Shown here: positions 3,573 to 58,153 of the stretch, in pieces | Numbering within the stretch: the stretch's first letter is position 1 | Layout: every line of letters begins with the position of its first letter | IMG/VR virus record: IMGVR_UViG_3300008952_002707 | Coordinates: 1 to 64,000 of that record | DNA length: 64,000 nt | Source of the DNA: a virus | Reading direction: 5' to 3' (one strand) | Translations under genes and position numbers: made by a program | The notes under the pieces: generated by a model | Seen by the model: the letters and a program-made list of their open reading frames with translations, nothing else | The model's database searches: none | Told to the model about the DNA's origin: nothing

Positions 3573-3920
3573 ATGACAAACCCGAATAGCAAGGGTTTCT
3601 GCAATGATATATCCCTCTCAAGAAAGCTGAGAGACCGAGGAAAATCTAACGAAGCATTCGAAGTAATGCTGTCTGCACTAACCCTAGAAGAAATTATAGG
3701 TCTTAAACTAGAATGCTCCAGTCGATTAGCTGGGGGTAAGATGTACGGCTTTAACTTATGGTCGAATATTGTTGACATTACAAAGGAAGCACTATATAAT
3801 GCGGTTATTAGCGTTGCCAAAACCAATAAAGAGGCTACTAGAATATTAGGTATTAATGATGATACCTTTAAAAAGCTAAAGAGGAAATATAAGATAAGAG
3901 AAGAATACGACATAAAGTAA
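3573..3920 (+). CDS. small protein with C-terminal helix-turn-helix-like segment
   Basis: A 115-residue basic protein. Residues about 84-108 (NKEATRILGINDDTFKKLKR) have the pattern of a Fis/NtrC-like helix-turn-helix: an Ala-containing first helix, a Gly in the turn and a Lys/Arg-rich recognition helix. The remainder is helical with no further motif. It lies directly upstream of a perfect palindrome (3921-3936) and the tmRNA-like RNA, so regulation of that region is conceivable. Function unproven. Confidence 0.6.
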   Translation: MTNPNSKGFCNDISLSRKLRDRGKSNEAFEVMLSALTLEEIIGLKLECSSRLAGGKMYGFNLWSNIVDITKEALYNAVISVAKTNKEATRILGINDDTFKKLKRKYKIREEYDIK

Positions 3921-3936: not shown

Positions 3937-3957
3937 GGTCTTTGTCAACAACTAAAT

Positions 3958-4039
3958 GGGGGTGGATCTGGTTTCGACGGGGATTAAAACCTGCAATGGT
4001 AGTTCTCGGACCACGGTTCGATTCCGTGCACCTCCACCA
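3958..4039 (+). ncRNA. miniature tmRNA-like RNA (tRNA-like domain only)
   Basis: The 82-nt segment has both halves of the tRNA-like domain of tmRNA. The 5' end carries the tmRNA D-loop signature TCTGGTTTCGACGGGG. The acceptor stem 3958-3964 pairs with 4029-4035 over seven positions and includes a G3-U wobble (3960 with 4033), the alanine identity element. Discriminator A4036 is followed by encoded CCA. The T-arm CACGG-TTCGATT-CCGTG (4012-4028) is perfect. Between the halves there is only a short P2-like hairpin (GGGA 3980-3983 with TCTC 4004-4007; ACC 3989-3991 with GGT 3998-4000). The roughly 270-nt tag-coding and pseudoknot part of a normal tmRNA is absent, and no resume codon with an in-frame tag is present. 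It could not tag proteins, but might still be charged with Ala and bind SmpB or EF-Tu. Confidence 0.75.
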
Positions 4040-4064: not shown

Positions 4065-4430
4065 ATGAAAAAAATGAAATTATGGGAGCCATGGTTTTTC
4101 GAAAACAGTAAATTACCGGTATGGCTCTCGAAGATTGCCCCGATTGAAGTGTGGGCGTTTAGTTTTGCATTCTGGGTTTGGTGCCGGGGAGAAATGAGCG
4201 ATAGAACCAGACGCCATGAAACAGTACATTATCAGCAGCAACTGGAAATGCTATTTGTTGGACAATGGATATGTTATGGAATTTGCTGGCTTATTGGCTT
4301 TGCAAAGTACCGAGATGGTAGCAAAGCATATCGTCAGAATCCCTTTGAACAAGAAGCTTATGAGATAGATGATTTCGAAGATGGGCTTGTAACACGCAAG
4401 CGCTATGGGTGGACAAAATATAAAATTTAG
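4065..4430 (+). CDS. membrane-associated HExxH zinc-peptidase-like protein
   Basis: A 121-residue protein starting at the ATG preceded by AAGGAGATATAAT, a strong ribosome binding site. An upstream in-frame extension would run through the tmRNA-like RNA and is rejected. HETVH (His51, Glu52, His55) matches the HExxH zincin motif, and NPFEQEAYE (about 94-102) offers a third acidic ligand downstream. A hydrophobic stretch between them (about 60-75) suggests membrane association. The target is unknown. It is the first of three HExxH proteins within 5 kb. Confidence 0.65.
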   Translation: MKKMKLWEPWFFENSKLPVWLSKIAPIEVWAFSFAFWVWCRGEMSDRTRRHETVHYQQQLEMLFVGQWICYGICWLIGFAKYRDGSKAYRQNPFEQEAYEIDDFEDGLVTRKRYGWTKYKI

Positions 4431-4999: not shown

Positions 5000-5584
5000 A
5001 TGAATGATTATTTTAAGTTGGGGTTCCTGGCTATTGTTTATGTTTCTTTGATTATCTTTAGCATTTGTTTATTGGCAACGCCCTCTGGAGCTAGCGATTA
5101 TGTGAGCAATCATATCCGGATCCCCGCCGTTCATAATGCGCCTCCAAAGGTAGGCACATGGTTTAAAACCCCTACGGTGATAGTGTGTGAACATGCCCCA
5201 ATTAGTAAGGCACAAATCAACAGCGCTACAGATTTCTGGGAGAACCTAGGGTATCGGTTTTATACCACCCAATATAAGCACGACCCTCTTAACAAGTGTT
5301 TATCCGCAGCCCCAGAAGGCTATATTCTCATACGCCTCGTATCAACAAATATTAAACTAGAAGACTCAGCCCTGGCACAAACACATTTTTTTGTAGACAA
5401 CGACACCGCTGAAATAGACTGGGCTGTAATCTACATGCGAAACGATATAAGGAAGACCGTATTAGAACATGAGCTGGGGCACGCTTTGGGCTTTCTACAC
5501 TATAATAGAATTAATCACCTGATGAATGAAAAGTGGACCATGGGCGGTTGGGACAAGGACGGTCTAGAAAACAAGCGTCGGTAG
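5000..5584 (+). CDS. signal-anchored metzincin metallopeptidase
   Basis: A 194-residue protein with an N-terminal hydrophobic signal or anchor (about 8-30, ending near ATPSGAS). The zinc-binding motif HELGHALGFLH (His157, Glu158, His161, His167) is the full metzincin signature HExxHxxGxxH, and the Met-turn is probably Met175 in HLMNEKW. This matches matrixin-type peptidases that act outside the cytoplasm. Cys68 and Cys99 might form a disulfide. The substrate is unknown; a periplasmic or cell-surface target is likely given the signal. It forms a pair with the upstream lipoprotein. Confidence 0.8.
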   Translation: MNDYFKLGFLAIVYVSLIIFSICLLATPSGASDYVSNHIRIPAVHNAPPKVGTWFKTPTVIVCEHAPISKAQINSATDFWENLGYRFYTTQYKHDPLNKCLSAAPEGYILIRLVSTNIKLEDSALAQTHFFVDNDTAEIDWAVIYMRNDIRKTVLEHELGHALGFLHYNRINHLMNEKWTMGGWDKDGLENKRR

Positions 5585-37156: not shown

Positions 37157-40100
37157 ATGCCTGCACAAGTAAATCTAAATAAAACTTTTTATGATGAACC
37201 TATTAAGATTCCCTTCGAAGAGGGGAATATCTCATGGCTGCGGCTGCGCCTGAATAAGGATATTACAACTCCGGAGCAAAAGATAGAAAAAGCGGTAAAT
37301 AAGTACATTACTTATTACTTTCCAGAGTTCTACCGCAATATGCGCGATCCTGACTTCGATGGCGATCAAACTGTCTACAATGATCTGCGAGAAACGCTCA
37401 AGGGTGTCATCAGTATTGAGAACCCCGGCTACGCGTTGAGACCCCCCTCAAATACTAAACAATTTGTTCTGTTTAAATTAGAGGCTGAAATGTCCATGCG
37501 AGAATTCCGGGTAGCAATGTCTGCAGCACTACCCGATTTCGAAGATAATCTCTTGTTCTTTAATCAGGAGAACAATATCAGCCAGGACCTCAACGGGGTT
37601 ACAGAGATAGCACTAAGTTCGCTTGGTACGACGGCCCATAGTATGGGCGCCCTCATGAATAAGTTTGAGGAACAAAAACAAAACTATGGCGGCGCCGTTA
37701 ACGTGTCGGGAGTAGATTTTGGGTTTCTTTCTACATCTATTACGAAGATCCTGGCTCTAATTGTAAAAGGACTAGCCAAAGATCTAAAGGGAGTACAGCA
37801 GGGCGGACAACATCAGACTAGCTATACGGAGGGAGATGTTCTTACTTTATACTTCTCTAACAAAACAGATGCCCCGGACAACCCTCCTCCTCCTGATCCC
37901 TTAAATGTGTTTACTAATACTACCACAAGGATAGCTATCACCGCTATGACATATGTGGCAGCCGATGCCACCCCGGGTGTTGAATTTGTTAAGGTGGGGT
38001 ACTTCTCACTGATGAAGTATAAAAAAATATTCAGCGACCAGATGACTTTAAAAATCCTGCGAAGAGTGGATGATATCCTTGAACAGGAAAGAAACGCCGC
38101 CGCAACAGGGCGCCCCATGGGAATGCTTAATTTTATATCAGATATGGCGCTGCAAACCCCTCGTGACGAAGCCGCCGGAGAGATGTTCACGTTTCCCACT
38201 GAAAATGATCCCAATACCGACAGCGATGCTCTTATTCAAGAAGCGATTCGCCTCAAATACCTAGACCCCACCGATGATCAAGACCTTCAGCAAGGAATAA
38301 AAGCCCTTACTGATGATGAACTAGCAGCATTACGGCATTCTGTTGAACAAAATCCTGAATTATTTGAGAAAGTGTATCAACAAGAGAAAAAACAAAAGCT
38401 TCAAACCGGAGTAGATGTAACCGACACCATCGGAAAGGCGTTGGAATTTGGACCGTTAGCCCTGTTCGAAGACGGATCTGCCGTCGACAAGATTATGCAG
38501 AAGTTTGGACTAAAGGCATTAGCCAGAGAAGCCATGATTTGTTTGACTTTCGGCTTAAACTTTGAAATACAACGCATCACTAACGCAATCGGAGATGTTT
38601 TACAAGATGAGCTTAACGAGCCATACAGGTCGACAGAGGAAAACAATACACGATTTGCTTTTGACTTGGAGATGCCGCTACTTAAGATTTTTTCGATCAA
38701 GGGTGATCTCTGGAAAGTAGTACTCGACGCAATTCTTAGTTCGATTTCTGAAGCTCTTATAACTCTCATTCAACAGTTGACCCAGCTTTTAAAGGAAGCT
38801 TGTACCATTCGCAACCCACGCGCGGAAGATTTTGGTTCTGTTGACATCCCAAACTTGCTTGGTCCCACTATTGTCGGACCTAACTCTAATTCTCCATTTG
38901 GCTTCGGCAATGATGAAAATAGCCCCTTCGGCAACCTTATTGATTTGACTGGCTGTTCCGGAGAGGAGATCCTTACCTATCTAAATGATGTTTCCGGGAT
39001 ACTGTCGTCAATAGATATTTGTTTGTTGATGCAGTCGGATTTGGCACTCCCCGAGGGTCTCCTTACACGTATAGCTGAATTTAACGAAACGTACCCTACT
39101 CCCTGCATATCTGCCAATCTATCTGACCTCTCCCAGGTAGCAGATTTCTGGAGTATACTTTCTACCATGGCAGACGTAAGTGAGCTTTGCAACGAGATTA
39201 TTAATGATTTAATTTATCTAAACCAAAATAACATCTGTCTGACAGAAGACGACCTAGCCCAGCTGTCGCTTGAAGAACAAAACAATATTGAAGAGTTGCT
39301 CGATCTTATCGAGAATGGCTTTGATGACGCTCCTCCCATCTATAATTTTGATTGCCCGGATGCCGAAAACTTTATTAATGATCCTGTTATCACAAGACTT
39401 GTTCCAGAAACTCTTAGCGATCTTATTGAATTTGTGGAGATGCAGTTTATCTCGTCAACCGACGCTATAAAGAATGTTTTATTGGAGGCCACGCTAGGAG
39501 GTCCAGGACCACTGAGCCCCTATGAGCAGGCAGCAGCCAGTTTCGGAGCGGGCTCTCCAACCCCTGAGGAATGGGCGCGCAATCCCGACAGCGCCGCCCT
39601 CAATGCCATCAAAGACAGGTTTAATGACATTGCTGATGCTACAGGACCAATCCGAGATGCGATAGAAATGTGTTTACTTGATACCCCCGGTCTTTTAAAT
39701 CCCGAGATTCGGGATGTCGGAAACGCTGTCAACGGGATCATAGATGTTTTAAGAGACCCTGAGGTTCAGGGTGCTTTCGAAGGCATCGCGACCAAGCTGC
39801 AGACTGCAGCGGCTCTCCCACCAAACACACCCATGATTACAACATATGAGTTTAATCAAGAATTCTTTAGGAGATTCTCAGATTATATTGATATTACAAA
39901 AGCTAAGCGCGGAGTCTCGTCAAAGACTTTCCAGATTCCTAATCATCTATATTCTTATTATACAATGTTCAATAGCCCCGACGCGGTGTTTAAAATACAG
40001 CTTAGTTTTCCCAAGTTTCACCAAGCAAGCTCTCAACAACGCATTGTACTCCGATATCCTCGTTACGAGAACACTAATCAGCCGACCCCTCTTTACTTTA

Positions 40101-42667
40101 GCTTAAGTGATCTTCTTGAGTCCGACGTCGAAGAACAATTAGAAGACGCCATGGCAGAAGAAACGACCAAAGCCTTAGCCGGCTCAAATTTACATTTAAA
40201 TTTGGATGAGTTTGTTGATGCGGTCACTGATCCCGACTCCCAGCAGGGCACCGAGTGGCTCACGGACCCCTACCTAGCAGAGTCGCGCTTTTTTCCCTAT
40301 GCTTATGGTCTTTTAACAGATCAGGTATTTGAATATTATGTAGAGAATGGGGTTTTTACTGCCGCCGCCCTCCAGCAACTAAACTTTTTCCACGATAATT
40401 CAAATTGCCTACCGGGAACGTCAGCTGACCTACTTGATGTCGAGGGCATTTTCAACGAAGTTCAGCAAGAATATATGCAACAAGCTTGTACAGATGCGAC
40501 AGTTCCTCCCCGCACACGCATGCGCAGTGTTATGAAATATGCTATGTATCTTCTTTTGGTTCAGGTTCACGTAGCAGAATTTGTGATCAAAAATATATTC
40601 CTTTTTTCTGCAGTACAGCTGAACGAAGTATTCGCTAACGAATTTATTGTTTCGTACATGCGAGATGAGATTCTCGGCTCTCTGACCCGTTACTTTGAGG
40701 GAATTGGAGAAATGGGTACGATTATAGAAATAAAGAACTCCTTGATCGACCTGTTTAATAAAAAGATGATACGACCTATTACAGTCCACCAGGGCGGCAT
40801 ACTGGATAATGAGGGGAATGTTGTTTTTCCTCTGGGAACCCGCTTTCTTCGAGCCGAAGCCGAACCGCAGGTAGCCCTGTCAAAGGCGACCACAGCGACG
40901 TTCGAGGACATTATCGATTATCTAGCAATTATAAGGATCCAAGCTTCCATGGGAACGACTACCGATCCCGGACCGGTCTCAAATGCTATAATAAAAGCCC
41001 TCCCCACACAGAATCAACTCACCCAGGATCAAATCTTTCTATCTTCGATGCCCGTACTACAAGGAATATCCCCAGCAGATAGTAAAGCTTCTATTGGTGC
41101 ACTTAAAAGAGACGCCCATCTAGTATTGCCCGGAAAACAAGAAAGAGCCTCCAGCGAAGGAGCTCCCAGTGGCGACAGCGATGTTGATTGCAACAATCCT
41201 ATTCACGTACTGCACCCCGACTGCCGCGACGCCATCCCCTTCTCGGACGAAGATGACGAAGATGAGCCCGGTCCCGTACATCCCCGCCCTGTTCCTCAAG
41301 AAGCTCGGTGGCATTGGCAGAAGCGAGATGCTGCTTTGGAAAAAATAGAAGAGATCCTTAATGACCGGTCACGAATTTTGATTACTAAAAATGTGATTGG
41401 AACCCGCGCTAAAAACAGCACCGATTTTCCTTTCCTTGAATTTTGGAACCGAACTAAAATACAATACTCATTTTGGATGTATGTAGATAAGCTCGGCGGC
41501 GATGGTGGCGCTGCACTCTATCAAGGAACCAACACCTCGAAGCAAGACAAGAGAAATATTATTAAATTATTTGATGTGGAAGATTTTGACTTTGGACCAG
41601 AAGTCGCAGCCCTGTGGGCTCAAGCCGAAGCAGCTCTCGATGAAAATGGCGTCGCGCATGGAGCCCTTAACACTTCAGAGAAAGGTGCGATTCGCAATCG
41701 AGTTGTAAAAAAGTATAAGGTGGAGAGTTTCTCTTCCGTGCTCAACCCCGTCCCTTTTGTGCCGTCGAGCTTAGCCCCGGAGGAGATGGCCCATATTATT
41801 GCCGATCCTAAATACCAGCAATATTTTTCGACAGTTTTTAATAAAGAAATCATTGGAATCGTCCCGATAATACAAAACTTTTATTTAACTGATCATTACT
41901 TTCCTGCAATTGAGACCACCATGGCATCAACTAAGGATCGAGTTCTAGGTATGATGGAAACGATCTTGCGAGGAGACGATAGATATGACGGAACACCGCG
42001 CCTCGGGCGCACTGCTGCCTCCAATCATGCCTTAAATAGCAGCGTTTCGATGAGCACGATTGATCCCGAGAGCATGGCTCGCGACTTTATTTTGAAGATG
42101 CTTATTAAAACTCCTATTGACATATTAAAGGGAATACTAGAGATTATAGATCCCCACGTTTCGACTACAAAAATGATTAAAACGGGAACCGGAGCTGCCT
42201 TTAACGCAATTAGCGCAGTTCTAGCACAAAAGGACCTTCTCAGCGAAGATGATCCGGCGTACCAGGAGGCGCTAGCGTCGGATCCGAATCTCCCTCCCGC
42301 ACCATTTGCCCCCGGCGCCGACGCGGGCGACCTTTTCGTAGCCATTCTCTGTGTGGTAAACCATCTGCTACAAAACCCTCCCGGGTTCCCGATCATTGAC
42401 CCTCAGCCGCTTAACCTATTTCCACGTATTAGTATAGATGGCGTTGACTTTTTAGGAACCGGCATGGGGATGTATATGATTCCACCGACACCTTTAGGGT
42501 TTCTTTATCTTCTGTTGCAACTAATTAATTGGGACGCACAGTCAGATGTAGATATTAACCTTGACATTAACTCTCCGTTTGGATCGGGGGGAGTCAATGC
42601 CAGTGATAGCACAGAGCCGACTGACTGTGAGGAGGCTGAAATTGCTATTGAGGAGACAACGCCATGA
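37157..42667 (+). CDS. very large virion structural protein, probably baseplate
   Basis: An 1836-residue acidic protein, starting three bases after the previous stop and overlapping the gp25 gene by four. It has no recognisable enzyme motif. Stretches of Pro/Asp/Glu (near 240-255 and about 1355-1385) probably link domains, and several long helical segments occur (about 420-560). Its position directly before gp25 and gp6 puts it in the baseplate module. There is no matching T4 protein by eye; its size suggests a hub, a wedge or a tape-measure-like component. Confidence 0.7.
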   Translation: MPAQVNLNKTFYDEPIKIPFEEGNISWLRLRLNKDITTPEQKIEKAVNKYITYYFPEFYRNMRDPDFDGDQTVYNDLRETLKGVISIENPGYALRPPSNTKQFVLFKLEAEMSMREFRVAMSAALPDFEDNLLFFNQENNISQDLNGVTEIALSSLGTTAHSMGALMNKFEEQKQNYGGAVNVSGVDFGFLSTSITKILALIVKGLAKDLKGVQQGGQHQTSYTEGDVLTLYFSNKTDAPDNPPPPDPLNVFTNTTTRIAITAMTYVAADATPGVEFVKVGYFSLMKYKKIFSDQMTLKILRRVDDILEQERNAAATGRPMGMLNFISDMALQTPRDEAAGEMFTFPTENDPNTDSDALIQEAIRLKYLDPTDDQDLQQGIKALTDDELAALRHSVEQNPELFEKVYQQEKKQKLQTGVDVTDTIGKALEFGPLALFEDGSAVDKIMQKFGLKALAREAMICLTFGLNFEIQRITNAIGDVLQDELNEPYRSTEENNTRFAFDLEMPLLKIFSIKGDLWKVVLDAILSSISEALITLIQQLTQLLKEACTIRNPRAEDFGSVDIPNLLGPTIVGPNSNSPFGFGNDENSPFGNLIDLTGCSGEEILTYLNDVSGILSSIDICLLMQSDLALPEGLLTRIAEFNETYPTPCISANLSDLSQVADFWSILSTMADVSELCNEIINDLIYLNQNNICLTEDDLAQLSLEEQNNIEELLDLIENGFDDAPPIYNFDCPDAENFINDPVITRLVPETLSDLIEFVEMQFISSTDAIKNVLLEATLGGPGPLSPYEQAAASFGAGSPTPEEWARNPDSAALNAIKDRFNDIADATGPIRDAIEMCLLDTPGLLNPEIRDVGNAVNGIIDVLRDPEVQGAFEGIATKLQTAAALPPNTPMITTYEFNQEFFRRFSDYIDITKAKRGVSSKTFQIPNHLYSYYTMFNSPDAVFKIQLSFPKFHQASSQQRIVLRYPRYENTNQPTPLYFSLSDLLESDVEEQLEDAMAEETTKALAGSNLHLNLDEFVDAVTDPDSQQGTEWLTDPYLAESRFFPYAYGLLTDQVFEYYVENGVFTAAALQQLNFFHDNSNCLPGTSADLLDVEGIFNEVQQEYMQQACTDATVPPRTRMRSVMKYAMYLLLVQVHVAEFVIKNIFLFSAVQLNEVFANEFIVSYMRDEILGSLTRYFEGIGEMGTIIEIKNSLIDLFNKKMIRPITVHQGGILDNEGNVVFPLGTRFLRAEAEPQVALSKATTATFEDIIDYLAIIRIQASMGTTTDPGPVSNAIIKALPTQNQLTQDQIFLSSMPVLQGISPADSKASIGALKRDAHLVLPGKQERASSEGAPSGDSDVDCNNPIHVLHPDCRDAIPFSDEDDEDEPGPVHPRPVPQEARWHWQKRDAALEKIEEILNDRSRILITKNVIGTRAKNSTDFPFLEFWNRTKIQYSFWMYVDKLGGDGGAALYQGTNTSKQDKRNIIKLFDVEDFDFGPEVAALWAQAEAALDENGVAHGALNTSEKGAIRNRVVKKYKVESFSSVLNPVPFVPSSLAPEEMAHIIADPKYQQYFSTVFNKEIIGIVPIIQNFYLTDHYFPAIETTMASTKDRVLGMMETILRGDDRYDGTPRLGRTAASNHALNSSVSMSTIDPESMARDFILKMLIKTPIDILKGILEIIDPHVSTTKMIKTGTGAAFNAISAVLAQKDLLSEDDPAYQEALASDPNLPPAPFAPGADAGDLFVAILCVVNHLLQNPPGFPIIDPQPLNLFPRISIDGVDFLGTGMGMYMIPPTPLGFLYLLLQLINWDAQSDVDINLDINSPFGSGGVNASDSTEPTDCEEAEIAIEETTP

Positions 42668-46408: not shown

Positions 46409-49400
46409 ATGAGTATAAAGAAATATTTTGAAGTAGCAGAAAATATTCAGTCTCTCTCGAACAAATCTGCTCATGAGATAGCCTCGCAAGTCGAGTCCGC
46501 TGGCTACCACGAGCAAGATTTGATTCAAGAAGAGAGATTTATCTCTCGTGTTGATTTTTCAAAGCCGCAGAACTTTGCGCGCTGGGGATCGGCAGAAGAG
46601 TATTATAACGAAGCGCTCAAAAGAATCTATGAAGGTTACCCCTATGATGGGTCCCTCCGCGAAAGGAGCGAATGGCATAACGAGTCAATTGACATTGATC
46701 TGTATGTCTTTGAAAATAGATATCCTCGGACAACTGGATACGTTATCCTCTCAGCTGACGGCTGGGGAACGGGCAACCTTGTTGATGGTTATGGCGTTCC
46801 CGCAACCCCTGAATATATTTATGTAAAAGGCGGACCCAATCCCCATCAGGTAAAGGAAGCTCCCTATACTATTCAATTTACGGGCTCCAACTATTATGAG
46901 CCCTCCAAAAATCGAGGATCTAACCTTTCTTTAAACCTGGCCAGCAATGGAGCATCTCTAGAGTTCTGGCTTAAAAAGAGTGCTTTCCTGGAAGAGTCTC
47001 CCCGCGAGGTCATCTTTGACTTATGGAACGGGGAGAACTCGTCTTCTGCTGATTATGCACGCTTCCGGCTGGAGCTTACGGGAAACCTAACAGATGGATC
47101 AACACCGTTCCTGCTCACAGCAATGTCGGGAACTACAGGATTTTACCGACAGAACATCTCCAGCACCTCAATCACCAGTACTTCGGTGGGGAACGATACC
47201 TGGCAGCACTACGCAGTAACTCTTAAGTCTGCATCAGCCGGAGTAACCACAAGATTTTATGTCAACGGCGCCCTAGACAAAGAATCCACCCTAGGTTCTA
47301 CCGGCATAAATGATGTCGACAGCACAGCGCTCAGAGCGTACGTAGGAGCGCTTGTAACCGCTGTATCAGGAACTACTACCCCTAGCTCCACAAAAGCTGC
47401 TGACGGCAAGCTCTCGGCGTCTCTCGATGAATTCCGGTACTGGAAGACACAGAGATCATCTGAAGAGATCGGTCGCTTTTGGTTTACCCAAGTAGGAGGG
47501 GGCGTTAATACTGACCCAGTACCCTTTACGACTACCGAAGAATCTTCTAATGTTAATTTAGGCGTCTACTTTAAATTTAATGAAGGTATTACTGGACGAG
47601 CCGCAACCGATAGCGTGGTTCTGGATTACTCTGGACGCTGGTCTAATGGCGCCTGGACCGGATATACTTCGAACTCACGAAACACCGGCTCCGCGATAAT
47701 ATCCTCCAGCGCTGCTGTCCGAGAATTCGAAGATCCAATTATCTATTCTTTCCACCCTCGTGTAGAACTCCTAAGTACACAGCTCCAGTTATCTGGCTCG
47801 ACTTATGATGTAAACAATAATGCCTCGCTGTTCAAAACTATTCCTTCTTGGATTTCTGAGGAAGACGAGGAAGGCTCCGGAGATGTTAAAAAACTAACAC
47901 AGATATTGTCTAGTTATTTTGATAGCTTACACTTAAAAATAGAGAGCCTAAATAAGCTTAAAGATATCCGTTATTTGAGCGGAAGCGCTGAGAAGCCGCT
48001 CCCGTTTGCTGAGAAACTTTTATCTAATTACGGATTGGTCGCTCCGGACTTATTCCTGGATGCTGACATCCTTGAGAAGCTATTGGATCGCAGTGAAGAC
48101 AAGGTTTATGAAAAGTCGCTTCACGATATCAAGAATATTATTTATCAAAACATCTATAACAACCTCAATTATATCTATAAGTCTAAGGGAACCGAAAAGT
48201 CATTCCGTAATTTAATTCGCTGCTTTGGTATTGACGACGAACTCGTCAAAATTAATATGTACGCGAATGATGTTACTTACGAGTTACAAAACAATCGCCG
48301 CAACGTTGTAGTGGCTGACAAATTTGTCAACTTCAATAACAGCGACAACACCAAAGCTACAGTTTACAATTATGCAGACCCTACCAATTCCAACTCAGTT
48401 AGTTATATTGATGCTAATTCTAGTTTGACCGGGGGATTTGCAACCACGCTAGAGACAGAGGTGCTGTTTCCCCTTAAAATATCAGAGGACTCACCGTCGT
48501 ATGTGAACACTAATATAATTAGTTCTTCATTGTTTGGTGTCCACGGCACCACACTGTCCGCGACCAAAACAACTTGGCCTGGGGACGACACCGTTAACTT
48601 CCAAGTTTATGCTGTCCGCGACGAACTATATTCAGATAATGTAAAATTTGTTCTGACTAGCTCAACGGGGGGTTATATCCCGAAGTTGTCGAGTAGCCTC
48701 TATCAACAGGTCTACAACAATACGAGATGGAATCTTGCCGTACGGATAAAGCCAGAAACTTACCCGATGAAGGGATTGATTAATAGTGCAAGCAGCAATT
48801 ACGTAGTCGAACTCCATGGTATTCAAGCAGAAGCTGGCGTTATCCTAGAGGAATTTACAGTTTCTGCTAGTATTACAGCGCCTAGACCTTCTTTCGTGAC
48901 TGGCAGCAAGAGAGTGTTTGTTGGAGCCCATCGTTCTAACTTCACGGGATCTACCGTCCTAGATATGACTGATGTTAAGGTGAACGCTTGCCGCTACTGG
49001 CTAGACTATGTTGATGATGAAGCATTGAGGGGTCATATTCTTGATACGGAAAATTATGGTGCATTACAGCCCCATCTATATGCGTTTGAATTTGATACGT
49101 CTGCTTCTTATGGAGATGTGACCAAATATGATACGCTGGTGTTCAACTGGGAGTTCCTAACAAACACGGGCTCTAGTGCCGGCGGAACCTTTATGGTCGA
49201 CGATCTATCTTCCGGGTCTGCCGACTTTACTAGGTTCGGAAGTCTAGGAGGCATTCTTAATAAGCAGTACACCGCTAGTGGCTCCTTCTTCTTACCATCC
49301 TCGACAAAGTCCATCGATAAAGACTTTGTGATTTCTTCCAAGCTCAACCTTCCTGAGAATGTCAGAGCCGAAGACATGGTTAAAGTATTAAACGCACAGG

Positions 49401-52400
49401 AACAAGATGTCTTTACTACAGAAAGCCGCCCTGTAAACTATTACTTCGCTTTTGAAAAGAGCATGTATCAAGTGATCTCCGAAGAGATCCTCAATTCATT
49501 TGCTAATCTAAAAGATTTTCATAACTTAATCGGAGATGTTGTAGAGCAATACCGACCAGAATATAAACAACTTGCTTTTATGAGGCAAAAATTCTTTGAA
49601 AACGTTGCCAATCAAGAGTTGGATTTTGAGAAGTTTTATGAGTATTACAAGTGGTTCGATAGCTCTCTGTCTTTAATGTTAGGACAACTTGTACCAGCAT
49701 CCGCAGATTTCTCGAATAATGTCCGTACTATGGTAGAAAATCATGTTCTGGAAAGACCAAAGTACCGGAATAAATTTCCAATCCTTCAAAGGAAGGGAGG
49801 AAACGACATCACTGGCGCCGTCGAGGGCGGAGGCGATGGCACTGCAATGGGCTCACCGGATGATTTCCCTCAGGGATCTCTTCTGTTTGCCAACACCTCG
49901 TTAACCAAACGACAAATTGGATCATCACGAACTCCTCAGATTAACAGCTGGAAGCATTTCCATGCCCCCATACGAGAGACTTCTCTCGGTCCAACTAAAT
50001 CATTATTGTTTGATGAGTCCGATGACACGAATGTCACAGCCGGAACTGCTGCACAGTGGCAGACTGATTTAGCTGATGCGTATACCAACGGTGTTTCCGT
50101 ATCCTTTTGGTTCAATATAAGCAGCTTCGCTTCCGGCACGGAACAGGTATTTAATCTCGGAATGATTAAGACGTCGTACCCCTACTATCAAGGCATACAA
50201 ATGTTTCTTTACGACGTCGCGACAAAACCATCCGTGTATGTCCAGGTCCATACCGCTGGGTGGTCTGTTTCCAATAGCACCAACGTACGCAGCAGTGGAT
50301 TGAACCTCGGGACATGGTATAATGTTGTCCTTACGATCCCAGCTGCTGCCATTAATGGAACCGGTGGAGACACTCCAAATATGTATATCAATGGGGGTGT
50401 CGACATGCCCTACAGTCACGCTGATTCTGTTGTCAATTGGACCACAATGGATTTGGGGGCACGCGGCGTGACGATAGGCGCCAAGCCCGCCGGCTCAGGA
50501 CTCAGTAATAACTCATTTGACGGATATATGTGTGATGTGGCTGTCTGGAACAAAGAACTCACTAGTGCCGAAGTGACCGAGATTTATGCCTCTGGAGAAC
50601 GTACCAACTTAAGCCTCGCATCGTGTGTTGGTAATCTTCTGTCCTGGTGGAAGCTTGGCTCCGGCACCGGTGACACTTATAATGGGGCGATGAGCAATGA
50701 GGTTGTAGGCGGACCTTCTGGAACCCCTAATGCTTTCGCCTCGTCAGCCGCTATAGCATCTGTTTCTCCTCCAGCTGTTTCTCCCTACGACCCAGCTGCA
50801 CAACATATCTTGGATATGGCATGGCGCAACAAAAACATTTACTGGCAACGGTACCGATCCGGAAGCGCCGAGCCCAAGCCCACTGTTGCATCCAACACGG
50901 TCCGCAAAGATTTGTTAACCGCGATCAAGAAGTCGTATGATCGAAGTGTTAACACACCTGTTAAATTTGGGGCAGAAGGATATGTGACCTTCGGCGGTGT
51001 TGCCCGTCCGCCCAATAATAAGCCCAACTATACGTTTGCTCACTGCAGCCCCTATGGTCCGATGGTATCGGGATCTAATGTTCCAATTAACATTATGGTT
51101 GGATTTAATGAAGGTGTCGAAGAACTCATTGATTCGCCAGATGAATATTATCCCACCTTTAAGCAACGCCTAGGATTCGGAATGAACCCCACCATCAATA
51201 TTGATGAAGTTGATTCCACAACCGCGTTTGATGGTAACTTATATGCTCCATTTAGTATGTACAGCTCGTCGGTTGAGACAGGCTACAATGCTACAGTCGT
51301 AACAACCTATAAGTCTGGCACCATGCTTACCAACCTTCATAATGACTTTGTGGATTCACATGATACCCCGGCCCAGGGTCCGTTTACTGAGAAGTTTGTG
51401 GGTGGTCGGTTCTTCCGTCACACCGAACCAAATGCCGGGAGTGACACAAGGACGACCCGCGCCGAAGGCTTCCGGCTAGAACTTGGAACTATTGCTCCCG
51501 GGAAAGCCGGTGCACTGGGTGTCGTCCCTCCCAACTATCCATTCAGCGACACACTTGAGAGTGAGTTAACTAATGATGCTGGGACTGTCCTCGGCTGGCT
51601 CAAAGATGTGCCCATTGCACAGCGCTTCCGAGATGAAACTGCCAAGCGACCCTTAAACATCAAGAACATCTTGATGACAACTGCCTCGGTGGGGACACGC
51701 TTGAGCGGAACGATTACTCATAATCCAATCGGCAACTACCAGAAGAACTATCAGGTTATTAGCACTGGTGGTCGCATGATCAACGACCCATTCTTCCAAG
51801 ATCAGTCTTTTGATTTTGCTTTGACTCCTCAGCTCCCCATATCACGATTGACATCTACTCGCGTAGTAAACACAAAAGCAATATCTATAGATGGGGGTGA
51901 TTATTATACCTTCTCGGCACCGTCTGCTATGAACACCAACACGGCAGAAACGTGGTCCTTTTGGTTAAACTGCCAAGATATAACCAACGGGGGCAATCTC
52001 CTCGTTGCTGGGGCGGCCGGAGCCGGCTCGTATATTAGCATCCTGACCGCCGCCGCCGGTAGCAAACTGAAGTTCGTAGCCGACTTTAGTACCGACGATG
52101 GTGATTGGAGGACAGATTCCGCAGTAACCACTGGAGACGTATGGGTTCATATAGCAATAACTTATGACGGAAGTTCAACGAGCAACGACCCTGTGATCTA
52201 TGTTAATGGGGAGAGAGTAGCTATTACTGAATTAACTACTCCTGTCGGCACCCGGGTGGCATGGTCTGGAAGCCCAACATTGGGCTATAACAAATCTTCC
52301 GGTTTCGAGGGCTATGTTTCTGATGCTGCATTTTACAACAATATATTGCTCCCAGTTCAAGTGAGTGCCATTTATGGTAACGGAACTTTAGATTTGATCA

Positions 52401-55400
52401 ATTCCGGGCCCTCCCCCGAAAATCTTATTATGTGGTGGCGCTGCGGAGATGGGGCAACAGACACCGCCGCCACCATTGTGGATCAAAAGGGTAACGCAAA
52501 TCTTACAGCCGGCGGCAGTCCAACTCTGGTGGATATAACGCCTGCTGACTGTTTCCGCGCGACCGCCCCTCTCGGCCCGCTGAACTCTGTGGCTCGAAAC
52601 GCGTTCGCCCTCCCCGACCGAGCCGGCTCAAACTCGAATCAAACTATCATCGTCAATCACTTCAGCGCTCCTGGAGAATATAAGACACTTTCCCGCGGCT
52701 ATCTTGATCCTGCGCACGAAGAATTGTCAGCATACAATGCCTCTCCCTATCGAAACCGCGGAGTTATTGATTATGGTCTATCTGGTTCTGCCTCCGCAGA
52801 CCCCAGTATCGCGGGCTCCATCCGCGTCGTCGACCAACTTGGCAAGAACCGCGGACTCAATCAGTTATCAACATTGCATTCGGACCCTTATGGTATTGAC
52901 TCAGCATATGGTGTAGTGACGAAACCATCAGCTGGCACCCCGGGAACCACACGTATCGACGGCGGAGGTGGATATTCCATCACCCCCTCATGGACAAAGA
53001 CAAACAGAAATCGTCGCCGGCGGATGGAGAACACCGCACTACAGACGGCCATGGCAGAAGGCAACGTAACTGGGTCAGTCTATGATAACCTCTATGTCCA
53101 GCATGCTATCCCGCAGTCAGAAGCACAGTACGCTTGGGTTACAGCTTCCATGGCATATGGCACCTCGATCTTCGGATTAGATACTCCCACATGCACCAGC
53201 GCTTCCACCATGTCACAATTGTTGACTGCCTCAATTGGTTATGTTGGCGGCGACTTTGTGGGTTTGCGCGGCAAGATCATTGACAACGTAAACCTAACAA
53301 CCCATACTTTAGGATTTGAGAGCCCTGCGATTACTCCGTTCAACTATGTGAGTTCCGCGACACCTAATGTCGGGGGATCGGGAAGCTACGTCGCTCTAGG
53401 CCAGAGCGGCGACTTCGAGGACTGGAACGATCTTATAGGCGGGGGACATCCTTCCACCATCAACCCAATAACCATATCTATGTGGATATATCCCCGCGGA
53501 GACAACCCCGACGGGTCGGGACGCCTGTTCCAATTCGGCGACGGGAGCCAACGGCGCCTTTCCTGGGACAACACGTCGACTAGTCAGATTTCATGGCGCT
53601 TCCTTTACGGCGGCGGCAGCACCTTCGTCATCCGAACACCACCTGGGAGTGTTCCTCTTAAAGTTTGGACTCACGTTGTTGCAACCTTTGGAGGAGGAAC
53701 CGCGGGAGACCTTAAAGTATACCTAAACGGGCTTCTCTCATCCGGGGATTCATATTACGCCAAAGCAGTGGATGCTCCCACTGCCGGGTCTCCTCCAATC
53801 CTCTTTAATCGAATAACGGGCATCATCGCCGGCGGCGCGTCCTACCAAGCCTACGATCGTGGCTTTTATGGGAATTTTGCCAATACTGCAATTTGGAACC
53901 GAGAACTTAATGCCGAAGAGGTTGAAGCCCTTTACAACAATGGCGGACGAATTGAGCTTACCAACGTAGCATCAATGCGCAAAAACCTGCTTGCCTGGTA
54001 TCGGTTCAACAGCGACTATGGAGATAGCACCGCCACCGCTGATACCTCCACCACCGCCACTATGCGGAATCAGGCAGTATGGGACGTATACGGATCAAAT
54101 CCTAAAATTCCAGTAGCAGCTACCTTGGCTACAAGCTATGGCACTACCGTGCTCACTTCCTCCGTGATCTTAACGGATAACAAATTGACATCTGGATCCT
54201 CAGGGGATATGGGACTATCTTCAAGTGCTTATTCAAACGCATATATCAACTCTAATGTGTGGTGGGAAGCACCTACATTTGTAAATGAGCATGATTACCT
54301 TAACGCTCTTATATTAAACCGCGGTGGACCATATGGCAACCCCACTTGGAAACAGATCCGCGGCATGGATCGCCCCGTCGTTAGGAAAATGAGAGAGAAC
54401 AATCTTATCGGTGTCGCCATTGATCCTGTTCCTTTCACCAACTCAGTTGGTACCGCTCAGCACCCCACCAGACCAAACACGTTTGTAGATTACTATGAGT
54501 CTCCGGTCGAGAATAGTAAAAATCCTATCTACTTTTATTTTGAAGACAACACCACTAACTCCGACAGCGCCAATAATCTTATTGTGACGACACCATACGG
54601 CAACGAATTAGAGCACTTCTCTCATGCGGGACTCAATACGCGGCTCGGGCTTAAAGTGGACCTCACCCAGCTAGATGCATATCGCTCTGTTAAGAATTTT
54701 ACGATGGACAGTGCTCTCAGTGTCCTCATAAAATATAGTGAGAGAATTTATCCTTCTACAAAGAATGCTTATCGCAAGAACATCCGCGGCAGGACTGAAT
54801 ACAATATTGATAATATTTGGAACAATAACAGAGAATATCGCAGCATTCCGCTGGGCTCACTGAGCGGTGCCTTTGTTTACTCTGGCTCTCTAGGCGGGGC
54901 GTACTCCAATATAGGCGTTCCAACAGCTAGTATTTGGCCACTTGACGCTCACCTTGACTTTGCCACCACTGGCTCCGCTCTCGGCACCGACGGCGCGGGA
55001 CAGCTCCTGAACCTGTACTCTAGGTATAGTTGTTCTGTGGTCTCTGATGGCACGAAGCGAACAAACATTAATGCTGCCCCGACTTATGCTTACAGGACCC
55101 AGTACGGCTGGGCTGCTAGTGCTACAGGGTCCGGCGGACAGGATCCCCTATACATGGGCGACGCCCCCTGGACTGCTGCCGAGACTTTCGGCAAGCCCCC
55201 CTATGAGACCTACCAGTCGTATGCGGATAGAATCCGATCGATAGGAAAGGACTATTCAATTCTACCTGAATTCAGGATAAGTCCACTGATGAGTACCTAT
55301 GTTGATACTCACGAGAGTAACTTCCTCGCGGATCTGAATAATATTTTCGAATTAACAGGTGCGGCAGTTAGCAGTAGTGTAGAGGATAAATTCTATACCA

Positions 55401-58153
55401 CCTATACTAACTCCGATTTCTTAAAGTATTTTAAAATTGTTGATGACGATCTCTATGAAAAGAGATCTGGTGCCCTCAAGATTATTAGAGATAAGGTAAC
55501 TTTAAGTTGCGATGCCCTAATAAAATTCTTGCCCTATAAGGGGTTTTATCCTGCTGAACGGACAGCAGAACTGGCAACGATCTTCTCTCAGTCTTATGGT
55601 CCGAACATCATCCCGGCAATGACAGATTATGAGGCAAATCAGAATCAAGTTTTCCGGATTGTTACGGAGCCCCTTTTCTCTCCTGGAATTTTGCATAATA
55701 CGGTGAAATCCGGATTGGCAGTATCTAATTTTGTTCTTACATATGGGGGCACCGGCAGCAACCATACGAGCAACGGACCCCCCATGGCTCTTACTATCCC
55801 GACGGCCACCACGGGAGGCGTTTGGACAACGGCGGGGCAGCGCACCGCTGATCACCAATGTACAGTGGGAATCCCGACCCGAGATATGCTGTACGCGCCG
55901 CAACCGAATGCCGAAACCCCAGCAGGGCAGTATTGTATGCAAACTGTTCCGTTTGAAGCATTATATGACCCCGAGAGCTTCTTTAACGTGGATACAATAG
56001 CAAACCTTAGTGGATCAACACCCCGGACGTCCAACCCCGGGGTCAACTCCTTCCCCAACGGAGTAATTTATGATACGGCGGCAACAGGAAGTCTGGCTTA
56101 TTTGAACCCGGGTACAAAGAAACAGGTCGGCGTGGATCTATCAACCTTCCAAGGCTCGCCGACCTATAAATTAGCAATAGATAACTTTTTAAGTGAAGTT
56201 TCTAGCCTTTTCGTGGATCAGTTCGCCCACTTTAAGTCCGACCGCGAAGAGAATTTTAAGTCCGTTAGCTCCGACAATGTTTATATGATGACGTTGGAAC
56301 TTTATCGAACAAAGCTTCCCGGCAATGAGACGACCATGGCTCAGCCCGATCATAAGAATTTCACGATGTATAATAATCCGCTTGGTTTTGGTCAAGTCGC
56401 TCTAAATGATAGTCTTAGTGCATATGGTGGCTCTTCCGCGCATGTTACTCCTCCTTATTACGGTGCACCAGCTACAGTTACATTTAAATATACACCTGGC
56501 TCAGGAGTAACGGTACCCACAATAGATGAAATTTTTGCCAACACTACGGTGACCTATTATAGGCAATCCCTCTATTCCACCTTGAGCATTAACACAGACA
56601 CTTATTACTCTAGGATGCAAGTTAGCAGCTCTTGGAATCTTTTCGAGAGACTGACAGAAGTCCCTCCCGGTACTGTCACCCAGAAGAGCCGGTGGCTTTT
56701 GCAATCCAAAATGGAGACACCGGTGCTTAATTTTGCTCATACCGCCATGGTCCCGGCGCAATCAGCCTCCTCTGCCCCCTTTGGCGACGTCGTTAACGCA
56801 GCGACTCACAACTACGGCGGAGCTTCCCCTGGCATTCGTGGTATGTGGCACCAATATGGGTCCATCCCCACTGGATCCGCCGAAGGGGTGTTCGCGATTA
56901 TTAACCCATATCCCACGCTAGGTAGCGCGGTGGAGGCTCCAACCGGAGGTACCCCTACCGGCTCATTGGCGAACATTTTGGGATTCCAAGCCGGAGTTCC
57001 GCTGCGTATTGGGTCCACAACGAAAGAGGCAAAATTTGAAGAAGCTGTTGTCGCAGTTCCATACCGTGTCAACTCCAACGTCAGAGAATTTATTAAATTC
57101 CCCAGAATCACACCTTCTTTGGTCACACTAAGAGCCGCCATGGATAAGTATGTGTTTCCTCCTAAGTTTGATTTTACTCGATTTGATACGGTTGAAACAA
57201 TAATGATGTACGTTTTTGAGTTCTCAGCAGACCTCACGCAGACGGACATAGCTAATATGTGGCAGAACCTGCCTCCCTCTATAGCAACAGAATTTAAAAC
57301 TCAAAATGCTGTCGTAGAAGAGAAAGAGTTGATCGATTCAATTATAAGTAAAGATAAAGATATTGAGTGGATGGTATTTAAGGTTAAGAAGCGCGCCAGA
57401 TCTGATTTTGAACTCGTACGTCGCTCCCAAGTGACAAATGATCTTACGTCGCTCCAACCTCGAATAACAACTCCCTATTCTTATAACTGGCCCTACGACT
57501 ATTTCTCCCTGGTGGAACTGGCAAAAATTACAGAGGGAGTTGATTATATATCAGCTGATCTTAAGGCAGGAGCGAACATTTCCGAACTTGAATCTCTGGA
57601 CGTAGACCGTACGGTAATATCAGCCGACTTCGGCGCAGCATCGTACGGCGCCGCCTACACGGGCGGAGGTGGCTCCGGTGGACCCCAAGGGGCGGCTTCC
57701 AGCGACGTCGCCCAACAAAGTGCGCCGCGGAACAACTATGGTCCTGGGTCTTCGGGCAAACCACCACCACAGAGCACCTACCCCGGCTCAAGCACAATTC
57801 CTTCGAGCAAAGGCGCAGCACAGAGCGTCTTCAACGTAGCTTCTTCGGGTAAAGGCGCCGCACAGAGCACTTACCCCGGCTCAAGCACAATTCCTTCGAG
57901 CAAAGGCGCCGCACAGAGCACTTACCCCGCTTCGAACCCCTACGCACCAGCTTCTTCAAAACCGAGCATCCCCCAACAGAGCCAGCACGCGGCAGGACCG
58001 GCTACCTATTTGCCGGCTTCTTCAAAAGGGTCATCTGGGGTTTCATCTCAGGGCGCTAGCTATGGTGGGGCTACGAACTATGGCTCCAGCTATGAAGGCG
58101 GCGGCAGTCAGGCTCCGCCTCCAACGCAATATCCACCACCAGGTAGCTTCTAA
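46409..58153 (+). CDS. 3914-residue giant tail protein with four LamG-like domains
   Basis: An exceptionally long virion protein. LamG/concanavalin-like sandwich domains appear at about residues 165-420 (SLEFWLKKSAF, DTWQHYAVTL, ARFYVNG-type strands, LDEFRYW), 1197-1437 (VSVSFWFNISSF, GTWYNVVLTI), 1820-2035 (ETWSFWLNCQDI, DVWVHIAITYDGSS) and 2320-2557 (ITISMWIYPRG, KVWTHVVATF). Residues about 490-612 (LSSYFDSLHLKIESL, NYIYKSKGTEKSFRNLI) resemble P2 gpI / T4 gp7-type baseplate wedge proteins. The C-terminal 170 residues are Gly/Ser/Pro/Gln-rich with a repeat (see 57779-57919). It likely bridges the baseplate to receptor binding, with the LamG domains contacting glycans; the last point is inference. 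Confidence 0.85.
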   Translation: MSIKKYFEVAENIQSLSNKSAHEIASQVESAGYHEQDLIQEERFISRVDFSKPQNFARWGSAEEYYNEALKRIYEGYPYDGSLRERSEWHNESIDIDLYVFENRYPRTTGYVILSADGWGTGNLVDGYGVPATPEYIYVKGGPNPHQVKEAPYTIQFTGSNYYEPSKNRGSNLSLNLASNGASLEFWLKKSAFLEESPREVIFDLWNGENSSSADYARFRLELTGNLTDGSTPFLLTAMSGTTGFYRQNISSTSITSTSVGNDTWQHYAVTLKSASAGVTTRFYVNGALDKESTLGSTGINDVDSTALRAYVGALVTAVSGTTTPSSTKAADGKLSASLDEFRYWKTQRSSEEIGRFWFTQVGGGVNTDPVPFTTTEESSNVNLGVYFKFNEGITGRAATDSVVLDYSGRWSNGAWTGYTSNSRNTGSAIISSSAAVREFEDPIIYSFHPRVELLSTQLQLSGSTYDVNNNASLFKTIPSWISEEDEEGSGDVKKLTQILSSYFDSLHLKIESLNKLKDIRYLSGSAEKPLPFAEKLLSNYGLVAPDLFLDADILEKLLDRSEDKVYEKSLHDIKNIIYQNIYNNLNYIYKSKGTEKSFRNLIRCFGIDDELVKINMYANDVTYELQNNRRNVVVADKFVNFNNSDNTKATVYNYADPTNSNSVSYIDANSSLTGGFATTLETEVLFPLKISEDSPSYVNTNIISSSLFGVHGTTLSATKTTWPGDDTVNFQVYAVRDELYSDNVKFVLTSSTGGYIPKLSSSLYQQVYNNTRWNLAVRIKPETYPMKGLINSASSNYVVELHGIQAEAGVILEEFTVSASITAPRPSFVTGSKRVFVGAHRSNFTGSTVLDMTDVKVNACRYWLDYVDDEALRGHILDTENYGALQPHLYAFEFDTSASYGDVTKYDTLVFNWEFLTNTGSSAGGTFMVDDLSSGSADFTRFGSLGGILNKQYTASGSFFLPSSTKSIDKDFVISSKLNLPENVRAEDMVKVLNAQEQDVFTTESRPVNYYFAFEKSMYQVISEEILNSFANLKDFHNLIGDVVEQYRPEYKQLAFMRQKFFENVANQELDFEKFYEYYKWFDSSLSLMLGQLVPASADFSNNVRTMVENHVLERPKYRNKFPILQRKGGNDITGAVEGGGDGTAMGSPDDFPQGSLLFANTSLTKRQIGSSRTPQINSWKHFHAPIRETSLGPTKSLLFDESDDTNVTAGTAAQWQTDLADAYTNGVSVSFWFNISSFASGTEQVFNLGMIKTSYPYYQGIQMFLYDVATKPSVYVQVHTAGWSVSNSTNVRSSGLNLGTWYNVVLTIPAAAINGTGGDTPNMYINGGVDMPYSHADSVVNWTTMDLGARGVTIGAKPAGSGLSNNSFDGYMCDVAVWNKELTSAEVTEIYASGERTNLSLASCVGNLLSWWKLGSGTGDTYNGAMSNEVVGGPSGTPNAFASSAAIASVSPPAVSPYDPAAQHILDMAWRNKNIYWQRYRSGSAEPKPTVASNTVRKDLLTAIKKSYDRSVNTPVKFGAEGYVTFGGVARPPNNKPNYTFAHCSPYGPMVSGSNVPINIMVGFNEGVEELIDSPDEYYPTFKQRLGFGMNPTINIDEVDSTTAFDGNLYAPFSMYSSSVETGYNATVVTTYKSGTMLTNLHNDFVDSHDTPAQGPFTEKFVGGRFFRHTEPNAGSDTRTTRAEGFRLELGTIAPGKAGALGVVPPNYPFSDTLESELTNDAGTVLGWLKDVPIAQRFRDETAKRPLNIKNILMTTASVGTRLSGTITHNPIGNYQKNYQVISTGGRMINDPFFQDQSFDFALTPQLPISRLTSTRVVNTKAISIDGGDYYTFSAPSAMNTNTAETWSFWLNCQDITNGGNLLVAGAAGAGSYISILTAAAGSKLKFVADFSTDDGDWRTDSAVTTGDVWVHIAITYDGSSTSNDPVIYVNGERVAITELTTPVGTRVAWSGSPTLGYNKSSGFEGYVSDAAFYNNILLPVQVSAIYGNGTLDLINSGPSPENLIMWWRCGDGATDTAATIVDQKGNANLTAGGSPTLVDITPADCFRATAPLGPLNSVARNAFALPDRAGSNSNQTIIVNHFSAPGEYKTLSRGYLDPAHEELSAYNASPYRNRGVIDYGLSGSASADPSIAGSIRVVDQLGKNRGLNQLSTLHSDPYGIDSAYGVVTKPSAGTPGTTRIDGGGGYSITPSWTKTNRNRRRRMENTALQTAMAEGNVTGSVYDNLYVQHAIPQSEAQYAWVTASMAYGTSIFGLDTPTCTSASTMSQLLTASIGYVGGDFVGLRGKIIDNVNLTTHTLGFESPAITPFNYVSSATPNVGGSGSYVALGQSGDFEDWNDLIGGGHPSTINPITISMWIYPRGDNPDGSGRLFQFGDGSQRRLSWDNTSTSQISWRFLYGGGSTFVIRTPPGSVPLKVWTHVVATFGGGTAGDLKVYLNGLLSSGDSYYAKAVDAPTAGSPPILFNRITGIIAGGASYQAYDRGFYGNFANTAIWNRELNAEEVEALYNNGGRIELTNVASMRKNLLAWYRFNSDYGDSTATADTSTTATMRNQAVWDVYGSNPKIPVAATLATSYGTTVLTSSVILTDNKLTSGSSGDMGLSSSAYSNAYINSNVWWEAPTFVNEHDYLNALILNRGGPYGNPTWKQIRGMDRPVVRKMRENNLIGVAIDPVPFTNSVGTAQHPTRPNTFVDYYESPVENSKNPIYFYFEDNTTNSDSANNLIVTTPYGNELEHFSHAGLNTRLGLKVDLTQLDAYRSVKNFTMDSALSVLIKYSERIYPSTKNAYRKNIRGRTEYNIDNIWNNNREYRSIPLGSLSGAFVYSGSLGGAYSNIGVPTASIWPLDAHLDFATTGSALGTDGAGQLLNLYSRYSCSVVSDGTKRTNINAAPTYAYRTQYGWAASATGSGGQDPLYMGDAPWTAAETFGKPPYETYQSYADRIRSIGKDYSILPEFRISPLMSTYVDTHESNFLADLNNIFELTGAAVSSSVEDKFYTTYTNSDFLKYFKIVDDDLYEKRSGALKIIRDKVTLSCDALIKFLPYKGFYPAERTAELATIFSQSYGPNIIPAMTDYEANQNQVFRIVTEPLFSPGILHNTVKSGLAVSNFVLTYGGTGSNHTSNGPPMALTIPTATTGGVWTTAGQRTADHQCTVGIPTRDMLYAPQPNAETPAGQYCMQTVPFEALYDPESFFNVDTIANLSGSTPRTSNPGVNSFPNGVIYDTAATGSLAYLNPGTKKQVGVDLSTFQGSPTYKLAIDNFLSEVSSLFVDQFAHFKSDREENFKSVSSDNVYMMTLELYRTKLPGNETTMAQPDHKNFTMYNNPLGFGQVALNDSLSAYGGSSAHVTPPYYGAPATVTFKYTPGSGVTVPTIDEIFANTTVTYYRQSLYSTLSINTDTYYSRMQVSSSWNLFERLTEVPPGTVTQKSRWLLQSKMETPVLNFAHTAMVPAQSASSAPFGDVVNAATHNYGGASPGIRGMWHQYGSIPTGSAEGVFAIINPYPTLGSAVEAPTGGTPTGSLANILGFQAGVPLRIGSTTKEAKFEEAVVAVPYRVNSNVREFIKFPRITPSLVTLRAAMDKYVFPPKFDFTRFDTVETIMMYVFEFSADLTQTDIANMWQNLPPSIATEFKTQNAVVEEKELIDSIISKDKDIEWMVFKVKKRARSDFELVRRSQVTNDLTSLQPRITTPYSYNWPYDYFSLVELAKITEGVDYISADLKAGANISELESLDVDRTVISADFGAASYGAAYTGGGGSGGPQGAASSDVAQQSAPRNNYGPGSSGKPPPQSTYPGSSTIPSSKGAAQSVFNVASSGKGAAQSTYPGSSTIPSSKGAAQSTYPASNPYAPASSKPSIPQQSQHAAGPATYLPASSKGSSGVSSQGASYGGATNYGSSYEGGGSQAPPPTQYPPPGSF
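57779..57919 (+). repeat. 93-bp-period direct repeat coding for YPGSSTIPSSKGAAQS
   Basis: Two nearly identical 48-base units at 57779-57826 and 57872-57919 encode the same 16 residues, separated by a diverged variant (FNVASSGKGAAQS) and followed by a partial third copy (YPASNPYAP...). The repeat lies in the low-complexity tail of the giant protein. The near-identity of the DNA suggests recent slippage or recombination within this flexible region. Confidence 0.85.

Follow-up and report, generated by a model that had tools for sequence, protein, structure and literature searches.

A predicted phage tmRNA reduced to its tRNA-like domain, at a locus where related viruses carry either this short form or a full-length tmRNA

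An 82-nt segment of a virus genome raises the question of whether a phage may carry a tmRNA that is little more than the tRNA-like domain (TLD), and what such an RNA could do with no tag frame to offer. The window, by which we mean the whole stretch of 64,000 nt that was analysed, is most of a 71,182-base virus record (IMGVR_UViG_3300008952_002707). A PhoH-like gene and matches to a baseplate wedge and a tape-measure protein are present and point to a tailed phage, and a comparison of the first 24 kb of the window with the phage collection found no near DNA relative among sequenced phages. The tail region includes an ORF of 3914 aa (46409–58153) and another of 1836 aa (37157–42667). The features of the locus are as follows.

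3573–3920, plus strand: 115-aa gene, by whose homologues the same slot is recognised in related viruses (23 viral loci)
3772–3800, plus strand: promoter-like TTGACA-17-TATAAT, a possible promoter only (12 of 12 consensus bases)
3940–3949, plus strand: TTGTCAAG-like element 5' of the short RNA (alignment and sequences, by inspection)
3958–4039, plus strand: predicted TLD-only tmRNA, 82 nt (RF00023, 72 bits)
3958–3964, plus strand: acceptor stem, 5' strand GGGGGTG, with G3 at 3960 (sequence; all 7 pairs form in each of the clade's six short forms)
3970–3978, plus strand: tmRNA D-loop motif GGTTTCGAC (sequence, RF00023 alignment)
3978–3985, plus strand: P2 stem, 5' strand CGGGGATT (pairs with 4001–4008; covariation)
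3989–4000, plus strand: inner hairpin ACC-TGCAAT-GGT, capping P2 where the message and pseudoknot part would be
4001–4008, plus strand: P2 stem, 3' strand AGTTCTCG (pairs with 3978–3985; covariation)
4012–4028, plus strand: T arm CACGG-TTCGATT-CCGTG (all 5 pairs form; two relatives show a compensatory change from A-U to G-C)
4029–4039, plus strand: acceptor stem, 3' strand (U70 at 4033), discriminator A (4036) and encoded CCA (4037–4039) (sequence)

Direct reading of the record places the RNA gene at positions 3958–4039 of the plus strand, just where the original prediction had put it. In the Infernal comparison with Rfam that had been proposed along with that prediction, the tmRNA model RF00023 matches this segment end to end (cmscan, 72.0 bits, E 4.7e-26, cut-off 47) and outscores every other model of its clan at this place. 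The alignment runs over model positions 1–374, reaching both ends, with an internal deletion of 303 positions, so bearing out the central claim of a phage tmRNA confined to its tRNA-like domain. With those positions the mRNA-like domain, with its tag frame and stop codon, is absent from the 82-nt RNA, as is the pseudoknot ring PK1–PK4, only 10 nt lying between the aligned model ends. What defines the tRNA-like domain of RF00023, namely the tmRNA D-loop motif GGNTTCGAC, the T arm and the P2 stem, is all present. The acceptor stem (3958–3964/4029–4035) has 7 bp and includes the alanine-identity pair G3-U70 (3960/4033); this wobble, the D-loop signature, the T arm, the discriminator A and the encoded CCA are exactly as had been described. 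The linker had been taken for a short P2-like hairpin, and here the description needs amendment: P2 exists, as an 8-bp stem (3978–3985/4001–4008), but it is not a single hairpin, as it is capped by the 3-bp inner hairpin at 3989–4000.

Three other identities were considered and rejected. An ordinary tRNA (RF00005) is outscored by the tmRNA model within their shared clan, and ARAGORN called neither a tRNA nor a tmRNA at 3958–4039. A permuted two-piece tmRNA (RF04321) gives only a partial match of 41.8 bits, below the cut-off of 47. For a message part supplied in trans, a search elsewhere in the window found no tag-like frame. As a side observation, Synechococcus phage S-CRM01 (L284, 2485–2657) has a permuted tmRNA (RF04321, 82.5 bits) that is unannotated in its record. 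Minimum-free-energy folding of the 82-nt RNA is unremarkable (z -1.3) and picks a different fold; because folding alone is uninformative, the structure rests on homology and covariation. Judged by its sequence, the 82-nt RNA is a phage tmRNA reduced to its tRNA-like domain in the standard gene order.

The genomic position of the RNA bears on its origin. The 115-aa gene upstream matched neither a PHROG nor a Pfam family, and thus belongs to no known family; among its homologues at 23 viral loci, the L287 protein is identical. An Rfam scan that took in most of these loci, together with direct reading, found in the slot 3' of this gene a short form in L288, L289, L291, L292, L296 and the window, and a full-length tmRNA in L290, L293, L294, L295 and L297–L303 (n = 11). 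L286, reached via the gene downstream of the short RNA, also has a full-length tmRNA. An intact tag frame was present in all 11 full-length genes read (for example ANEADYGLALAA, ANDADYGLALAA, ANDSNYTSYALAA and ANDNVEFNYALAA); the twelfth, in L300, has the same coordinates and score as that in L299. No second, full-length tmRNA was found in the records with a short form, which are up to 193,778 bases long, many virus records being fragments.

As short and full-length forms occupy the same slot 3' of the same gene, a phage tmRNA probably shed its message part in place. The direction, from full-length to short, we infer from the presence of full-length forms in both main clades. In the neighbour-gene tree, six short and four full-length forms fall within one supported clade (100/99), whose internal order would fit either one loss with recombination or several losses.

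An element resembling TTGTCAAG also precedes, by inspection of the alignment, most other short forms and the nearest full-length tmRNAs. The sigma-70-like promoter sequence at 3772–3800 lies within the coding region of the 115-aa gene, 158 nt 5' of the RNA, and by eye is not conserved in L145. Directly 3' of the short RNA is an ORF of 121 aa (4065–4430) with a match to PHROG 15610 'protease' and an HETVH motif; a counterpart is absent at this place in L145. An ORF of 194 aa (5000–5584) has a metzincin-like zinc-protease motif (HELGHALGFLH) and a hydrophobic N-terminus, gave no Pfam or PHROG match at 1e-3, and has a homologue near the short RNA in L145.

A further observation concerns a leader of about 160–240 nt, between the upstream gene and the full-length tmRNA, which looks structured.

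Leader: L297 3330–3526; L298 720–956; L301 3345–3576; L302 3355–3589; L303 3330–3490

It contains the motifs CTTCAATGACTCTCTTGAAG and AAAAGGAGTCTAGC, and an inverted repeat with matching changes appears to close it off (CTATAAAGGG/CCCTTTATAG; in L301 CTATAGAGTG/CACTCTATAG). The leader in L301 has no Rfam match at E 1, and the leader is absent from the window and its short-form relatives. It may be a regulatory RNA of a new kind.

The six short forms of the clade show that pairing has been kept. Over 23 pairs, 97.1% of cells are standard pairs, and pairing falls to 37–59% when partners are slid by 1–3 columns. Both sides have changed at three pairs (U-A/G-C in P2, A-U/G-C in the inner hairpin and A-U/G-C in the T stem); in the inner hairpin the compensatory change occurs in one relative, and the outer pair is broken in two. 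None of 500 shuffles matches the observed pairing or covariation score, while the number of doubly changed pairs is ordinary on its own (100 of 500 shuffles). For six related sequences this is by itself good rather than overwhelming evidence that constraint has acted since the message was lost. The original prediction, which had suggested a check for covariation, held that the RNA is not a decaying deletion; this stands as regards present constraint, with pairs kept through compensatory changes in close relatives, but the form itself probably did originate when a full-length phage tmRNA at this locus lost its message.

A search for the same short form elsewhere, likewise suggested, was amply productive. 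Pattern scans of IMG/VR filtered by structure yielded at least 206 distinct short forms of 65–94 nt. The patterns fix the D-loop, the T-loop and GGA and leave the acceptor free; the first viral pattern was too loose and gave mostly chance matches, the structure filter being applied afterwards. Among the 206 forms listed, pair 3 is G-U in 205, the single exception being of unsure register, and the discriminator is A in all 206, while acceptor pairs 4–7 vary over many pair types and CCA is encoded in 68. That G3-U70 and the discriminator A are kept while pairs 4–7 vary freely points to selection for alanylation. In the same 206, the tmRNA-type D-loop motif has GG before TTCGAC in 174, and an inner hairpin of at least 3 bp occurs in about 160, its loop often being CACG, CATG or GCAA. 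A tRNA gene lies within 500 nt of 38 of the listed forms, on the same strand in 37 of these. ARAGORN calls overlapping the listed forms comprise a tmRNA at five and a tRNA at five.

Covariation extends to the whole collection. At P2 pair 2, counted over structured loci with two bases fixed, T..A occurs at least 115 times, A..T at least 119, G..C 58, T..C 4 and A..C 0. An earlier set of 47 members was anchored without fitting to structure; here 184 of 188 cells pair in acceptor pairs 4–7 (mean of 98 after shuffling), all 235 in the T stem (mean 157) and 175 of 225 in P2 pairs 3–7 (mean 107, maximum 129), figures which are not probabilities as the shuffles ignore relatedness.

Short forms also occur in isolate phages. 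Stenotrophomonas phage Jojan60, Streptomyces phages LuckySocke and Shaeky, and Pontimonas phage phiPsal1 have forms of 81–83 nt that score above the cut-off of RF00023 and carry no tmRNA annotation; the first three have theirs next to or inside a tRNA cluster. Matches of the same length occur in Streptomyces phages GiJojo and Alone3, the Rfam scan having covered the other four phages. A scan of bacterial assemblies gave mostly chance matches and five structured ones (a Bacillota MAG, a Prochlorococcus single-cell assembly, an Anaerolineae MAG, Cellulosimicrobium and a Mycobacterium MAG), which may be prophage or contaminant; the contig of the Prochlorococcus match doubles as a viral record.

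The proposed binding to SmpB or EF-Tu, with either a block of trans-translation or release without tagging, fits the published work on mycobacteriophage DS6A, a precedent that the original prediction had overlooked. A TLD-only RNA similar to that of DS6A is reported to inhibit tmRNA strongly in E. coli (PMC4131195, PMC11915505), and this DS6A-like inhibitor is described as working whether chargeable or not, perhaps by titrating SmpB (PMC4131195). Alanyl-TLD, SmpB and EF-Tu bind the stalled ribosome in crystals (PDB 4ABR/4ABS, 2012; PMC3968760). SmpB (PF01668) was not found in 62 virus records (42 + 20), many of them fragments and that of the window included, while the same search was positive in 10 of 10 bacterial controls; any SmpB used by the short RNA would thus most likely be that of the host.

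From DS6A inhibition, the alanyl-TLD crystal work and the conserved alanine identity, we favour, with confidence somewhat above even, an alanine-charged competitor that would enter stalled ribosomes without a tag by way of host SmpB and EF-Tu. After processing of its ends, the short RNA would be charged with alanine by host AlaRS via G3-U70 and would use its D-loop and T arm to bind host SmpB. Where a ribosome has stalled on broken mRNA, EF-Tu would deliver it to the A site, and there it could take the nascent chain but would have no tag frame to offer. It would thereby compete with host tmRNA for SmpB and stalled ribosomes, with less host tagging in infection. That the RNA is expressed and charged, that it inhibits during infection and that the phage gains by it are all inferred.

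Blocking alone leaves the retained alanine identity unexplained, given that the inhibitor acts with or without charging according to PMC4131195. This consideration keeps alive the idea of productive rescue without a tag, which we regard as possible, if on the whole unlikely: the charged RNA and SmpB would enter, the peptide would be taken and the broken mRNA would leave, after which Pth or ArfB would hydrolyse the peptidyl-RNA, so that ribosomes are recycled and the unfinished protein is unmarked for destruction. G3-U70 in 205 of the 206 listed forms agrees with it, inhibition needing no charging (PMC4131195), as does the persistence of mitochondrial tmRNAs without a tag frame alongside SmpB (PMC11915505). 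Sharing of one slot by short and full-length forms, mixed in one supported clade, leaves room for such rescue and suggests a common function; a full-length, tag-coding tmRNA in the slot of close relatives agrees no less well with a positive role common to both forms than with conversion to an inhibitor. Yet the sole reported experiment with a TLD-only phage RNA gave inhibition (PMC4131195, PMC11915505), and the release step, lacking a stop codon, has no known route. We would therefore only tentatively entertain that TLD-only tmRNAs are a large viral class, derived in place from full-length phage tmRNAs, of charged RNAs for tag-less rescue; if true, phages could bring stalled ribosomes back into use and keep their own unfinished proteins from being tagged.

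It is improbable that the RNA is a mere sponge, titrating SmpB (or AlaRS or EF-Tu) with no need to act on the ribosome: a similar molecule does inhibit tmRNA chargeable or not (PMC4131195), but the near-invariant alanine identity in acceptor and discriminator would be superfluous, and the near-invariance of G3-U70 argues against it. Conserved alanine identity would suit an alanine donor or other charged RNA with a role away from the stalled ribosome, such as in a non-ribosomal reaction, a reading we consider very improbable, as the tmRNA-type D-loop motif and the P2 stem would then serve no need. A decaying relic, its message lost by chance from a phage tmRNA such as relatives have in the same slot, is rejected on covariation and hardly conceivable, since pairing was kept with compensatory changes after the loss in what is a large family of conserved architecture. 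Equally far-fetched is an attachment site, or a tmRNA piece acquired by integration into host ssrA: ssrA is a common integration site (PMC11915505, PMC10865867) and an integrase gene lies near the short form in Shaeky, but the gene has both its ends, connected by a new structured linker, a tyrosine integrase was found in none of 16 records tested (that of the window included), and attachment cores hold the 3' part only (PMC10865867).

Returning to the charged competitor and its relatives, the at least 206 distinct viral forms were nearly all missed by ARAGORN and are unannotated as tmRNA in isolate phages. With a family of this size, interference with ribosome rescue, or its editing, would be a common phage strategy, and TLD-only tmRNA is probably a common, overlooked way for phages to control the fate of stalled ribosomes. 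Direct tests are possible, since the RNA occurs in isolate phages of Streptomyces, Stenotrophomonas and Pontimonas and since short and full-length versions can be compared at a single locus in related marine viruses; the strict retention of alanine identity makes the choice between sponge, blocker and tag-less rescuer answerable.

RNAs of this kind are already known, from DS6A and, outside phages, from mitochondria and plastids (the latter about 65 bp); new, as far as the open-access literature searched shows, are the size of the viral family (at least 206), the swap in place and the conservation of charging identity. DS6A has a TLD-only tmRNA, listed as a single case and described in PMC4131195 and PMC11915505 (after Mao et al. 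2009), and the 2025 tmRNA database has only nine sequences classed as 'standard, no CDS' (PMC11915505). On that description, by which rather than by sequence the two are likened, DS6A resembles the window RNA in being a phage gene of little more than the tRNA-like domain without a tag frame, but it belongs with another host group. The alanyl-TLD of the crystal work (PMC3968760), which occupies the stalled ribosome with SmpB and EF-Tu, is a laboratory RNA fragment and not a natural gene. The tmRNAs of jakobid and oomycete mitochondria and the plastid tmRNAs of Mallomonadaceae likewise have a tRNA-like domain without a tag frame; SmpB is nucleus-encoded there, and the mitochondrial ones are usually from permuted genes (PMC3985003, PMC4131195, PMC11915505), whereas the phage short forms keep the standard order, with an inner hairpin added in most of them. 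Melnitz-type tmRNAs (PMC9004378) are also borne by marine phages, but are two-piece, retain the message part and have a permuted gene order. The closest counterparts are the full-length tmRNAs of L286 and the eleven same-slot relatives, which share the locus, homologous neighbours and the same tRNA-like ends with the window RNA; at 313–434 nt they have the pseudoknot region and, in the eleven read, a tag frame with LAA or IAA at its end, both of which the window form does without.
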